From NCBI GenBank assembly GCA_937858155.1, contig CALLYM010000261.1, forward strand, positions 1 through 42,362: 42,362 nucleotides of DNA. The letters run 5' to 3'. Below the pieces are notes generated by a model. The model made no database searches and was not told the DNA's origin. It saw only the letters and a program-made list of their open reading frames with translations. The stretch is from an uncultured Phycisphaerales bacterium. Lineage in GTDB: Bacteria > Planctomycetota > Phycisphaerae > Phycisphaerales > UBA1924. This document shows positions 19,829-37,986 of the stretch, piece by piece. The first letter of the stretch is position 1. The number at the start of each line of letters is the position of its first letter. Made by a program: the position numbers and the translations under genes.

Positions 19829-20043
19829 CCTGCGGCGAGAGGCTGCGGCCGCTGCGCTCACACCTTGCCGTTTGCTGTTGAGCGATGCCGTGATTTCGGC
19901 ATTGCGTTGTCTGCCTGCGCTGTGCAGATTGGTGTTGCACTGCGGTGGCGGTGGGCACTGAGATTTACCAAACTAATTCCGAACACATATCGCCTTCCCA
20001 CATCATTTCCACACGATCCCACAATCTGGCACATAAGTGTCGC
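19829..20043. other. Intergenic stretch upstream of the mraZ promoter
   Basis: No gene or strong hairpin is seen in this part of the 414-base gap between the MCE gene and mraZ. Composition is noticeably less GC-rich from about 19860 to 20045, consistent with an upstream promoter region. Confidence 0.4.
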
Positions 20044-20077
20044 GGAGTGTTGCAAAGTGGGGCAAAGTGGGTAGACT
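20044..20077 (+). promoter_or_regulatory. MraZ operator overlapping the mraZ promoter
   Basis: Three 10-base direct repeats lie at 20044-20053 (GGAGTGTTGC), 20054-20063 (AAAGTGGGGC) and 20064-20073 (AAAGTGGGTA). The unit AAAGTG-K with a 10-base period, or TGGG spaced by 5-6 bases, is the published binding pattern of MraZ in other bacteria. A promoter overlays it: TTGCAA (20050-20055), 16 bases, TAGACT (20072-20077). Bound MraZ would block polymerase, giving negative autoregulation. The transcript would carry about 160 bases of leader before the start at 20243. Confidence 0.8.
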
Positions 20078-20242
20078 ATCGCCGCTGGCAGGACGCCAGC
20101 CCATCCCGGCCCAGCCCACGCAGGATCGCGCAGGCTGGATCGGAAGGCGACGGTCAAGGAAACGACCCGATGCCCCCCACCGTCACCGCCACGCCCGCGT
20201 TCACCTCTCTTACCGCCGCACCCGCACCTCGGCACTCACGCC

Positions 20243-20707
20243 ATGATCTTCACGGGGCACGCCGAACTCACGATCGACCCGAAGGGGCGGCTCGCGATTC
20301 CCGCGAAGCACCGCGGGCTGCTTCGCCCCGAGCGCGACGGGACGGCGTGGTACTGCGTGCCGTGGAGGCGTGGGCTCCTGATGCTTTTCACCGAGTCTCG
20401 GTTCATGAGCCTTGCGGAGCGGGGCGATGCGACGCTTACGCCGCAGGGCGAGCAGGCGGGCGCCGAGGCGAACTACTTCGGGCTGACCGAGCGCGTGGAG
20501 ATGGACGGGGCGGGGAGGATCGTGCTCCCTCGCTTGCACCAGGATCTGACCGGTTTGCGCGCGGAGAGCGAGGTCGTGATGATCGGCGCCGGTCCGCGGC
20601 TGGAAGTGTGGGAGAAGAAGGCGTGGGGCGACGGGCTGCAGCAGCGGTTCGCGCAGTTGCCCGAGTTGATGCGGTCGCTGGAGCAGCGTGGCGGTGAAAA
20701 GAGGTAG
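20243..20707 (+). CDS. mraZ: Transcriptional regulator MraZ
   Basis: 154 residues with the two AbrB-like half-domains of MraZ: residues about 4-22 with LTIDPKGRLAIPAKHR, and about 85-100 with VEMDGAGRIVLPRLH, both carrying the DxxGRxxxP signature. MraZ is a ring-shaped DNA-binding repressor that normally heads the division and cell-wall cluster. The upstream region carries the matching triple operator. Unusually, no rsmH, ftsI or mur gene follows: the next 320 bases have no gene and end in a strong terminator. MraZ here is therefore a one-gene unit, and must control its division targets elsewhere if it does so at all. Confidence 0.93.
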   Translation: MIFTGHAELTIDPKGRLAIPAKHRGLLRPERDGTAWYCVPWRRGLLMLFTESRFMSLAERGDATLTPQGEQAGAEANYFGLTERVEMDGAGRIVLPRLHQDLTGLRAESEVVMIGAGPRLEVWEKKAWGDGLQQRFAQLPELMRSLEQRGGEKR

Positions 20708-21027
20708 GTGTGGAGTACCCCCACTGCCGCCGGGAACGGCGCAGGTGAGGATTGCCTGACAGATCACGTGCCGGCGGGAATCTGCAAGGAAGCGGGTTTT
20801 CGCCACCGGCGGAAGGATGGGTGTTGGACGCCTGCACGGACGCGCGGCGTTCACTCACCCGGGGCCACAGAGGGCGCGGCAGACCATGCCGTGCTCAATC
20901 GACCCCCGCCCGTCGGATGGTCCAAAGGCTCACACGTCGCGCCGCCTCACCGGCGTCGCGACGCATTGCATCCCCCGGGCGGCGGGGCGTTCTCCACCAC
21001 CACCATCCTGCCTTGTCGCCCAAAGAA
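20708..21027. other. Unexplained 320-base trailer of the mraZ transcript
   Basis: No convincing protein frame fits this segment; the open frames are Arg/Pro-rich and lack initiation signals. It lies between the mraZ stop and a strong terminator, so it is probably transcribed. It is GC-rich with several self-complementary patches (for example CCGCCGGGAACGGCG near 20726-20740). I could not match it to RNase P, SRP, tmRNA, 6S RNA or a riboswitch. It may be a long 3' UTR, a small RNA or the remnant of a deleted rsmH. Confidence 0.35.
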
Positions 21028-21064
21028 ACCACCCCGCGCCGTTGAGCGCGGGGTGGTCGTTTTC
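21028..21064. terminator. Bidirectional intrinsic terminator between mraZ and the PPC-dockerin gene
   Basis: A perfect 12-bp stem (21028-21039 with 21046-21057), a 6-base loop, then CGTTTTCC on the plus strand and TTTCTTT on the minus strand. It sits 20 bases beyond the stop of the convergent minus-strand gene at 21085, so it can serve both. Confidence 0.9.
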
Positions 21065-21084
21065 CGGCAGAACGGACGTGCTTC

Positions 21085-23214
21085 TCAGAGGCAGGGGCCG
21101 CCGGAGAAGACAGACAAGAGGCTATCGATGTCCAGCGTGTCCGGATAGAGGGTGTCGTTGTTGAAGTCGATGTCGCCGCAGGCGCCTGTGCTGCAGGGAC
21201 CGCCGGAGAAGACGCTCAGGAAGTCGTCGATGTCCGCGGTGTCGGGGAAGAGGGTGTCATTGTTGAAGTCGACGGAGTCACAGGTTGCGCCGCAGGGGCT
21301 GGGGATGGTGACGGTGTTCCACTCGAACTCGGTGTTGTCGTCCGCGGAGGCCGTGGGCTGCTGCGTGGCGGACGTGTCGGTCGCGTTCTCGACGCCGATG
21401 GTCACGTCGCCGGTGAAGGCCTCGGGGAGGTTGTCCATGTTGCCGTACTGAACGATGAACGAGTTGCTGCCCTCAAAGAAGGTAATCTGGAAGTTATTGT
21501 TGTTGGTCGCGCCGAACTCGGTCACGCCTTCCCAGGAGATCTTGAGGACCTGGTTGGGGGAGGAGCCGAAGACCTGGTAGTAGACGTCGCCGCCCGCGCC
21601 GGGGTTGTAGTCGTCCCAGGCGGGGTAGATGGCGTTGCTGGGGGTCGCGCCATCGGGGATCGTGGTGTTGGTGTAGGCGGCGTCGGGGAACGCGGCGTCG
21701 AACTGGACGTTGCCGTTGGAGGACACGGCGACGTTGGTGACGGGCGTGCCGTAGAAGCTGAAGGGGAAGGGCATCGGGATGTTCTCCGTGCAGTCGTCGC
21801 AGTTGGAGATGGTGCCCAGGAGGTTGCCCGTTGCAGCGATGGACAGGAAGTCGTTGCCGACGCCCGCGGGGCTGACGGCGTAGCCCTCACCACCGCAGGA
21901 CGTGCCCGCGCCGAGCCAGGTGCCACCCGAGGGTGCGCAGAGGGTCTCGCGGGAGATGTCGCACGCGCCGCCGCCTGCGCAGCATGCGCCGGAGGGGCCG
22001 TTGGTGATGGTGACTTCGCTGCTGGAGGACGCGGAGCGGCCCTGATCGTCGTGGACGGCGATGGGGTAGTTGTACGTGCCGGCGACAGCGGACATGGGCA
22101 GGGTGTAGAGGAACTCGTAGACGTTATCGCCCGCGATTTCGTCCTCGGGTGGGCCCGAGTCGTACAGGGTCTGGGTGGCCGAGCCTCCGATGGAGGACAG
22201 GTCGGCGGTGACGACCAGGCCGGTGCTCGGCGGGGGCGAGCCGGGCGTGACGAACGCGCCGACGAAGACCTGCGTCAGTTCGGGGGCTGTGGAGAAACCG
22301 CCCGCGATTTCGAGCGGCTGGCTGAACGCGCCGATGGTGAGGACGCCGGAATTCTCATCGGCCGGGTCCCAGGAAGACAGGCGGACCAGGACCTGCTGGC
22401 CCGCGGTCATGGAGAGCTGGACGGTGCTGTTGAGGCCGATGGGGCCGCAGCCGTCGTCGCCGCAGGCGATCTGCGAGCCGCCGCAGCTGTCGATGAGCTG
22501 GAGGATGGTGTCATCGAGGCCGCCGGCGGGGGTTGCACAGGTATCAAACTGGTAGAGGTCGTCCGCGGGCGCGGTAAAGCGGAAGAAGATGTCGTGCGTG
22601 CCGGTGTTGCCCGCGAAGCCGCAGGTGGCGTCGGGCCCTTCGGTGCCCGCGCCGGTGTTGTCGAAGGGGAAAGCGCCGACGCCGACGTTCTGCGCGTTGG
22701 TGCAGAGGTCGTTGGCGGGCGCGACACCGCAGGTGCCGCTGGCGGTGATGGTGAGGCGGCCGTTGCCGTCGCCCGCGGAGAATTCGTCGTACGCCGCGAC
22801 ACGGATGAGGTAGGTCTGGCCGGCGTTCATGCAGAGGTTGGTGACGCGGCTGGACCACCCGTTGGGGCCGCAGGCGGTGTCACCGTTGTCGTCGCTGCAG
22901 CCCATCTGCACGGTCGCGCCGCACGTGCCGGAGTAGACGCTCAGCACCGTGTCGAACCACTGCGAGGCGGTCGAGCCGCAGGTGTCGAACGTGTACTTGC
23001 CGGTGGTGGCGGGCGTGAACGTGAAGAACACGTCGAACGCGGAGAAGCCGTTGCAGGACGCGCCCGGGTTGTTGTCGGTGGAGGCGCCGGCGGTGATGAG
23101 GGTGGTACCGAGGCCCACGGGCGTCGCCGTGCCACAGGTCTCACCGGCGAATGCCGCGAACGACAGAGCAAGGGCGGCGGCTGCGCCCAGGCTCGTACAC
23201 GCCAGGTTTCTCAT
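21085..23214 (-). CDS. Large secreted PPC-domain protein with dockerin-like tail
   Basis: 709 residues. Signal peptide about 1-24 (MRNLACTSLGAAAALAL, cleavage at AFA-G). Two pre-peptidase C-terminal (PPC)-type beta domains follow (about 25-150 and 155-275), recognisable by YTFDTCGST, FDTVLSVYSG, YQFDTCATP and DDTILQLIDSCGG. Next are a middle beta domain (about 275-410), a Cys-rich link (GACCAGGGACD), and a nidogen-like region (about 455-640) with FSFYGTPVTNVAVSSNG and IYPAWDDYNP. The last 65 residues are the double dockerin-like module (LSVFSGGPC twice; cysteines at positions 1, 30, 35 and 64). PPC domains often bind carbohydrate or aid export. No catalytic domain is visible, so a structural or adhesive surface role is likely. 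Confidence 0.88.
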   Translation of the reverse strand: MRNLACTSLGAAAALALSFAAFAGETCGTATPVGLGTTLITAGASTDNNPGASCNGFSAFDVFFTFTPATTGKYTFDTCGSTASQWFDTVLSVYSGTCGATVQMGCSDDNGDTACGPNGWSSRVTNLCMNAGQTYLIRVAAYDEFSAGDGNGRLTITASGTCGVAPANDLCTNAQNVGVGAFPFDNTGAGTEGPDATCGFAGNTGTHDIFFRFTAPADDLYQFDTCATPAGGLDDTILQLIDSCGGSQIACGDDGCGPIGLNSTVQLSMTAGQQVLVRLSSWDPADENSGVLTIGAFSQPLEIAGGFSTAPELTQVFVGAFVTPGSPPPSTGLVVTADLSSIGGSATQTLYDSGPPEDEIAGDNVYEFLYTLPMSAVAGTYNYPIAVHDDQGRSASSSSEVTITNGPSGACCAGGGACDISRETLCAPSGGTWLGAGTSCGGEGYAVSPAGVGNDFLSIAATGNLLGTISNCDDCTENIPMPFPFSFYGTPVTNVAVSSNGNVQFDAAFPDAAYTNTTIPDGATPSNAIYPAWDDYNPGAGGDVYYQVFGSSPNQVLKISWEGVTEFGATNNNNFQITFFEGSNSFIVQYGNMDNLPEAFTGDVTIGVENATDTSATQQPTASADDNTEFEWNTVTIPSPCGATCDSVDFNNDTLFPDTADIDDFLSVFSGGPCSTGACGDIDFNNDTLYPDTLDIDSLLSVFSGGPCL

Positions 23215-23426
23215 GCTTGCACCAGACCTTTCATAAAAGGGAACGGGGAAACGGGACTGCGAACGCACGGACGACCAGACCCCAGCGCCCCGAAGGGCCA
23301 CGAAGAAGCCATAGTCCACCGCAATTTGGTAGAGTTGTCAACCGCGAATGTCAGGTATTTTCCGGATCGGTGCCGTGGGGTACCGGATAATTGGTACACG
23401 CACTGCGTCCGGGAAGTGCGCGATGG

Positions 23427-35694: not shown

Positions 35695-37986
35695 TCAGCC
35701 GCACGTTCCGCCCGCGAATACGCGGAGAAGGGCCTGGATGTCCTCTGTGTCGGGAAAGAGGTCGTCGTTGTTGAAGTCGATGTCGTTGCAAGCAGCCGTG
35801 GGACATGGGCCGCCCGCAAACACCAGGAGGAAGTCGGTAATGTCCTGGGTATCGGGAAAGAGTGTGTCGCGGTTGAAGTCGATGGAGTCGCAGGGCGGGC
35901 AGCTGCCGGTGTCGAGGAAGCGAGTCAGGTACACCCCCGTGCGCGACCCGGAGTATCCGGTGTTGTTCAGCCACCCGCTGGCCCACAACTCGCCGTTGTA
36001 TGCGGCCAGGCCCATCACACATCGGTCCGCCGCCAACGCGCCGGCGTAATCATTGATTGGTGTCCAGGATCTGCCGTTCCACCGTGCAAGCCCGGTCGCG
36101 GGCTCGCCACCCGCGATCGTGAAGTTGCCGCCTGCAATCAGGTCTGAGTTGTACTCAACCATGTCGAAGACCAACCGCGCCGCCCCGACACCCCCGAGAC
36201 CTTCGACGCCTGCAGCGTGGAGAGGCGCCCAGGCCTGACCATCCCACACCAAAATGTTCGGGGCGGTGGCTCCGGCGTTTCCGCCCGCGAGCAGCGCGCC
36301 CTGCCACAGTTGCAATTTGTACGGCCACAAGCTCGGCGTGCCCCCGCCCAGAGGCCGCCACTGCACACCGTCCCACACCGCAACATTGTGGAGCAAGCTA
36401 CCCCCGGGGGACGACAGCGAGTTTCCGCCAATGATAAGCTGGCCGTTGTACACGGCCATGGCCGAGACGTCACCGAGCACACCGGCTCCCAGTTGATGCC
36501 AAAGCGTCCCGTCATACTGCGCGACATTCATGGCGGGCACACCGCCGATGGACGAGAAGGAGCCCGCAACGACCAGCCCTCCCGGCATGTCCGCCAAGCG
36601 GTATGCTCCATATCCAGCCACGACCGTGCTCCCGACAACTTGCCACTCTGTACCGTTCCACACCGACACGTCCTTGCCCGCCGCATAGAGCAGCCCATTG
36701 TGCACCTGCAGATCGGCGACCCGTGGAGACCACGTCGCGGACTGGGTCGTCAGCGAACCCATCTGTGCCCACTGCGTCCCCTGCCACCGCGCGACATTCG
36801 GCGTCACTTGTGTTTCCACCGCGTCAAATGTGCCAGCGCACACGAGCCCGCCCTCAAAGGGCTCAAACGCGGAAACGTTGGGCAGGAACGCGTTTGTCGT
36901 ACAGAATGGGCCGTCGCTCGGCACATCAACCCCGGCCGCGGTCGCTATGGCGACGGTGCGGATCGGGATGGACCCATTGCTCGCATCACCTGTTGCAACG
37001 AGGTTGCCCCGGAAGGCAGCGAAGGCGTACGCGGGAGCAAAGTCCGGCCCCTCTTGCAGGGTCACTCCGTCCCACACCCCGACAAATGTTGCGGGGGTGT
37101 TGAAGGACCCTCCGACGTACAGCGAGCCACCCCGGGACCGCAGGCACCGCACCGCGCCGTTGAGCGTTGAGGTTACCGCGGGCTGCCACTGCGCACCGTC
37201 CCATCTCCAGAACCTCGATCCGCTCGAGGTGCCTGCAAAGACGCTGCCTTCATGCGATTCAAGCGCGGCCACGGTGCTCGTCAGGTTGCCGAGTGCCTGC
37301 ACCGTCGTCCCGTCCCATGCAACGACCTCACCGGCCGCCGCACCGCGGAGGGTGTCAATAACGCCCCCCATGACAAGGGCATTGCCGTTGCTTGTCAGCG
37401 CGTTGATCGATGTCGAAGGGCCGAACACGCTGGTCTCCAATGCTCGCCACTCGGCCCCGTCAAACCGCGCAGCGCGATCCACCTGAACGGCACCGGCATG
37501 TTGAATCGTGCCAGCGGCGACAAGCTCTCCGTTATGAACATGGAGCGCCAAAACCGAGCCGTCCAGTACCGCCCCTGGCGGTTCCCACGTCGAGCCATTC
37601 CATCGAAGGAGCGAACTTACACCCGGAAAGACACCGCCCACGTATAGCTGGCCATTGGCGACTTCGAGCGCGAACGCATCCGGCGAAGCCACCTCCGTTG
37701 GCAGGTCCATGGCATGCCAATGCTCACCGTCCCATGCGGCCACACCCCGAGAGACCACCGTCCCCGCAAACCCAAACCTTCCTCCGATGACAAGCCAAGT
37801 AGGAAGCGGGCCCGCGCCGTCAGGATCCCACTCCACGGCGGTCCGTACCACAGCAGTGCCCGAAGTGCTCACCACCCCGGGGAAAGCCGACTGCATGACC
37901 ACCTCGTTGCACTGCGCGAGGCACCGCAATCCCACGGTGGACGTCAACACCGCCACCGAAGCATGAACGAAACAAAGTCGCGCCAT
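35695..37986 (-). CDS. Secreted kelch/delta-60-like repeat protein with dockerin-like tail
   Basis: 763 residues. AGAGGA precedes the ATG by about 10 bases. Signal peptide about 1-25 (LAQ-C). Residues about 40-680 are many 45-60-residue repeats of the form VAxWDGxxWxxLGxG followed by LxVxNGxLxxGGxF (for example VAAWDGEHWHAM, VAQYDGTLWHQLGAG, LQLWQGALLAGGN). These build one or two beta-propellers. The last 65 residues are the double dockerin-like module, with FAGG replacing FSGG. Proteins of this kind probably bind ligands or scaffold partners at the surface; no catalytic residues are recognised. It is the first gene of a minus-strand run with the cytochrome gene downstream. Confidence 0.87.
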   Translation of the reverse strand: MARLCFVHASVAVLTSTVGLRCLAQCNEVVMQSAFPGVVSTSGTAVVRTAVEWDPDGAGPLPTWLVIGGRFGFAGTVVSRGVAAWDGEHWHAMDLPTEVASPDAFALEVANGQLYVGGVFPGVSSLLRWNGSTWEPPGAVLDGSVLALHVHNGELVAAGTIQHAGAVQVDRAARFDGAEWRALETSVFGPSTSINALTSNGNALVMGGVIDTLRGAAAGEVVAWDGTTVQALGNLTSTVAALESHEGSVFAGTSSGSRFWRWDGAQWQPAVTSTLNGAVRCLRSRGGSLYVGGSFNTPATFVGVWDGVTLQEGPDFAPAYAFAAFRGNLVATGDASNGSIPIRTVAIATAAGVDVPSDGPFCTTNAFLPNVSAFEPFEGGLVCAGTFDAVETQVTPNVARWQGTQWAQMGSLTTQSATWSPRVADLQVHNGLLYAAGKDVSVWNGTEWQVVGSTVVAGYGAYRLADMPGGLVVAGSFSSIGGVPAMNVAQYDGTLWHQLGAGVLGDVSAMAVYNGQLIIGGNSLSSPGGSLLHNVAVWDGVQWRPLGGGTPSLWPYKLQLWQGALLAGGNAGATAPNILVWDGQAWAPLHAAGVEGLGGVGAARLVFDMVEYNSDLIAGGNFTIAGGEPATGLARWNGRSWTPINDYAGALAADRCVMGLAAYNGELWASGWLNNTGYSGSRTGVYLTRFLDTGSCPPCDSIDFNRDTLFPDTQDITDFLLVFAGGPCPTAACNDIDFNNDDLFPDTEDIQALLRVFAGGTCG

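Follow-up and report, generated by a model that had tools for sequence, protein, structure and literature searches.

The DNA analysed here, a 42,362-bp stretch from an uncultured Phycisphaerales bacterium (referred to below as the window), encodes a stand-alone mraZ gene preceded by a predicted MraZ operator. This gene very probably constitutes a monocistronic, autoregulated unit, which has moved out of the dcw cluster, has kept its operator and has itself as its sole multi-box target. In many bacteria mraZ is the first gene of the dcw cluster, which makes it difficult to tell the function of MraZ from that of the operon. The following features of the window were distinguished:

20034-20070, + strand: predicted MraZ operator, four 7-bp units with a 10-bp period (based on sequence, pattern counts and conservation in the family)
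20034-20040, + strand: operator unit 1, TAAGTGT
20044-20050, + strand: operator unit 2, GGAGTGT
20054-20060, + strand: operator unit 3, AAAGTGG
20064-20070, + strand: operator unit 4, AAAGTGG
20050-20055, + strand: putative -35 element TTGCAA, within the operator (found by eye; almost all relatives in the alignment have the TTG)
20072-20077, + strand: putative weak -10 element TAGACT (found by eye; aligned columns TATAAT-like in relatives)
20078-20242, + strand: non-coding leader, from the promoter to the mraZ start
20243-20707, + strand: mraZ open reading frame (154 aa), two MraZ domains, both D-x-x-x-R loops
21028-21057, no strand assigned: perfect 12-bp hairpin (z -4.5 on the + strand, -5.0 on the - strand), probable shared terminator

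The protein encoded by mraZ matches the Pfam family MraZ (PF02381) in two stretches (57 bits, cut-off 23; E 1.9e-15), as well as the solved MraZ structures 1n0e, 9qlr, 9qlg and 9sx6. Each of its halves carries one D-x-x-x-R loop (IDPKGR and MDGAGR), which we take to be the DNA-contact loops. For comparison, 66 mraZ loci were gathered, from which L103 (foreign, see below) and L084 (a duplicate of L035) were left out. Among the resulting 64 rows, the [IV]DxxxR loop is present in 63 and the second loop in all. The protein misses the NCBIfam equivalog cut-offs (TIGR00242 and NF001476; scores of 49.9 of 98.35 and 50.3 of 162, respectively), and it is therefore considered a divergent MraZ, filed under the Pfam family and not under the equivalog. 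An overlapping open reading frame starting from ATG 20170 is in a different frame from mraZ.

The GTG cores of the operator units are located at positions 20037, 20047, 20057 and 20067. Taking at least three AAAGTGK units with a 10-bp period as the mark of an MraZ operator, the window site has four, with the K position right in every unit and the full AAA in two. The first-pass annotation described three repeats overlying a -35/-10 pair; the repeats are there, but it caught only the last three units and missed the weaker one at 20034. Four in-register GTGs occur once in the window (0.01 expected), and an exact AAAGTGN4AAAGTG pair spans positions 20054-20069. When two mismatches were allowed in the AAAGTG pair pattern, two matches were obtained in the window vs. 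1.0 expected, so this loose form alone is not significant. The predicted -35 and -10 elements are separated by a 16-nt spacer. The TTGCAA/TAGACT pair, with only 8 of 12 positions agreeing with the consensus, was read by eye and is absent from the list of a consensus promoter scan (cut-off 9); its support comes from the TTG and A...T columns conserved across the relatives. A conserved leader peptide or RNA in the 165-nt leader was rejected, since the leaders that were compared vary in length and sequence and no small open reading frame was seen to be common to them.

The upstream picture is largely uniform in the 64 regions: a GTG, TTGCAA-GTG, GGGCAAAGTG, and then a -10-like GGGTATAATC. With a fixed scoring rule (a score of at least 11), the operator was recognized in 52 of the 64 mraZ upstream regions of the family, vs. 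3 of 640 Markov-resampled sequences, 1 of 64 reverse complements and none of 60 rsmH flanks, and the earlier description of the operator as well preserved is thus borne out. A site matrix was built from 58 of the 64 rows, the other six having no usable site. Its leave-one-out scores at mraZ range from 2.7 to 57.1 (median 40.2); the window site scores 29.5, as against 0.3 to 7.2 for five shuffled windows. A second candidate in the window, at 36393 on the - strand (score 9.9), was rejected, as it lies within a 763-aa open frame and its score is near the shuffled maxima (up to 7.2). The operator is also present in the genomes G012, G206 and G126, and none was found upstream of mraZ in the congener G207 (locus L176; MraZ 42% identical).

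It is extremely improbable that the repeat is the operator of some other protein (e.g., a C-protein-like regulator) or a mere compositional repeat. Similar GTG repeats are bound by HsdC in Mollicutes, as stated in the available part of PMC5282649, with a spacing that differs by 1 nt; the repeat described here has the 10-bp spacing of MraZ sites, is tied to mraZ across 61 genomes and is rare in resampled controls.

The architecture of the site is that of known MraZ systems, which are compared here on the basis of the available parts of the cited papers. MraZ sites of Mollicutes have the form (AAAGTGKN3)3 (PMC5282649), and the mraZ promoter of Mycoplasma genitalium holds the only chromosomal occurrence of the site (PMC8475190). 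The dcw promoter of M. genitalium and M. gallisepticum shares with the window the box (AAAGTG[T/G]), the 10-bp direct-repeat spacing and the placement in the mraZ promoter. However, the Mycoplasma mraZ heads mraW and ftsZ, whereas in the window mraZ stands by itself, and its lineage gave no FtsZ match. In Escherichia coli, the boxes lie upstream of mraZ itself, as in the window, and MraZ represses its own operon (Eraso 2014, cited in PMC8475190); there the MraZ-box promoter drives the dcw cluster, whereas in the window no division gene follows mraZ. The promoter PmraBc of Burkholderia cenocepacia contains four seven-nucleotide repeats bound by MraZ (PMC7761207), the same number and length as in the window, but it serves a long dcw operon and not a stand-alone gene. 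Our literature search found no work on the mraZ context in Phycisphaerae; the available part of PMC12283558 deals with dcw gene presence across the superphylum, and nothing on an MraZ operator was noticed there.

Downstream of mraZ, the region 20708-21148 was rejected as a second cistron, given its lack of codon-position GC bias (0.68/0.64/0.71 vs. 0.69/0.48/0.89 in mraZ), and the next gene (21085-23319) is convergent. The first-pass annotation was thus right that neither rsmH nor another division gene comes after mraZ. Its "strong terminator" corresponds to the perfect hairpin at 21028-21057, which has a short U tract (+ strand CGTTTT) and is not in the list of the terminator scan. As it lies 320 nt beyond the mraZ stop and 27 nt beyond the stop of the convergent gene, it probably ends both transcripts. 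The gene preceding mraZ in the window encodes an MlaD-domain protein. The two large proteins encoded by 21085-23319 and 35695-37986 (both on the - strand) have a common repeated tail at their ends, approximately DFNNDTLFPDT-DI-DFL-VF-GGPC, which presumably resembles a dockerin-like or anchoring motif.

The source genome (82.78% complete, 296 contigs) has one MraZ match in a profile search (contig C261) and one rsmH match (contig C13), both well inside their contigs, and mraZ is not followed by rsmH as in a dcw cluster. The search for a second mraZ in a dcw cluster of this genome (82.8% complete) returned only the MraZ of the window. On C13, the genes that come after rsmH are a LysM gene, a small open reading frame and a gene for an FtsI-like transpeptidase, in keeping with the earlier statement that mraZ has left its usual cluster. 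This rsmH cluster may be what is left of dcw after the loss of mraZ from it. The locus as a whole (L120:4568-10697) comprises rsmH, the LysM gene, a 133-aa open reading frame, the FtsI-like transpeptidase gene and a gene for a protein with a weak match to an exosortase signal.

MraZ was found in 57 of 61 family genomes (56 once the foreign copy is taken out), and of the 55 genomes that have both genes, 54 carry mraZ and rsmH at separate places (as read off the tables). The sole adjacent pair, in G040 (contig C76, locus L103), is of quite different type; it was excluded because the contig is probably foreign. This was a judgement, made on the score of its MraZ with the family profile (86 vs. 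145-228 for the others); G040 (69% complete) has another rsmH besides the C76 copy. The two genes are also apart in G126 and G156, which represent two other families of the order, and adjacent in all four genomes from elsewhere in the class (G110, G171, G185 and G197). In a sample of the phylum, counted among the matches listed (102 genomes with mraZ, 138 with rsmH and 95 with both), they are adjacent in 87 of the 95 genomes, the eight exceptions being the source genome, G126, G156, G080, G136, G151, G170 and G204. The nameable relatives are Phycisphaerae/Phycisphaerales or Planctomycetota MAGs. Because the genes are apart across the order and adjacent in 4/4 class genomes outside it, the separation most likely dates from the origin of this planctomycete order or close to it. 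In three other planctomycetes (G159, G183 and G193), mraZ matches occur at two separate places.

The first-pass annotation suggested for the displaced MraZ either a dispersed division regulon, controlled in trans, or another target. Trans control of division and cell-wall genes through copies of the same operator is very unlikely. The strict pattern GTGTTGN4GTGNNGNANNGTG gave 22 hits in the 61 family genomes, one per genome, of which 21 are at mraZ (the reversed control gave none). The remaining hit (G024, L136) lies within a 151-aa open frame and was taken as chance. All eight hits of the exact pair AAAGTGN4AAAGTG are at mraZ; the reversed control also gave eight, scattered, so that only the placement at mraZ is telling. 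The loose form AGTGN6AGTGN6AGTG is not enriched (12 hits, four of them at mraZ, vs. 18 in the reversed control). None of 30 rsmH loci scanned with the site matrix has a comparable site (best score 3.9 vs. the mraZ median of 40.2). In the assembled part of the source genome (82.8% complete, about 17% missing), the genome-wide patterns, which covered multi-box sites of regular spacing and included further AAAGTGKNNN repeats, matched only the mraZ operator. On the other side, rsmH and ftsI persist in the source genome, and the retention of mraZ in 57/61 family genomes implies a function outside its former operon. Another MraZ target, of weaker or different sequence, is possible. Thus, of the earlier interpretation, the autoregulatory operator and the departure from dcw are supported, and the dispersed division regulon is unsupported.

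A candidate second target of MraZ is a flavin reductase gene (PF01613), which is divergent to mraZ and shares the operator region in 47 of the 64 family rows (41 clear cases and six with an open frame running into mraZ; e.g., L035:3135-3713 and L036:3086-3601). The pair might then form a metabolic or redox switch, of which the source genome would have lost the reductase partner. We consider this unlikely: no flavin reductase was found beside mraZ in the window, in the congeners G206 and G207, or in G126 and G156 of the order, yet the operator persists in the source genome, G206 and G126; moreover, the boxes are oriented toward the mraZ promoter.

No tubulin/FtsZ match was obtained in any of 21 genomes (the source genome and relatives), whereas 13 of 14 control genomes were positive, which agrees with the ftsZ loss reported for the class in the available part of PMC12283558. 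It can tentatively be proposed, at rather low probability, that the orphan MraZ, kept by the whole order with its own promoter as its only multi-box site, serves single-box or unconventional targets or another job (such as the flavin reductase pairing), its role then no longer being division control.

The preferred reading is that of an orphan, self-regulating MraZ in FtsZ-less bacteria. MraZ would bind the four GTG units, which are spaced by 10 bp and overlie both the -35 element and the spacer of the mraZ promoter. The bound protein would most likely block RNA polymerase and so keep the amount of MraZ constant. Repression is suggested by the operator position and the analogy with E. coli; the sign need not be repression, as MraZ overexpression in M. 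gallisepticum is accompanied by more FtsZ (available part of PMC8475190). The mraZ unit would have departed from dcw, with its operator retained, when the order arose or close to that time, and rsmH would have stayed elsewhere with the LysM gene and ftsI and with no MraZ site, leaving the mraZ promoter as the one multi-box target of MraZ.

The system represents a modest variant of a known switch; what is unusual is that mraZ stands alone, and does so across the order. An order with a lone mraZ, a kept operator and no FtsZ match, in which the separation can be dated by comparison inside one class, offers a natural test of the role of MraZ beyond the division genes.
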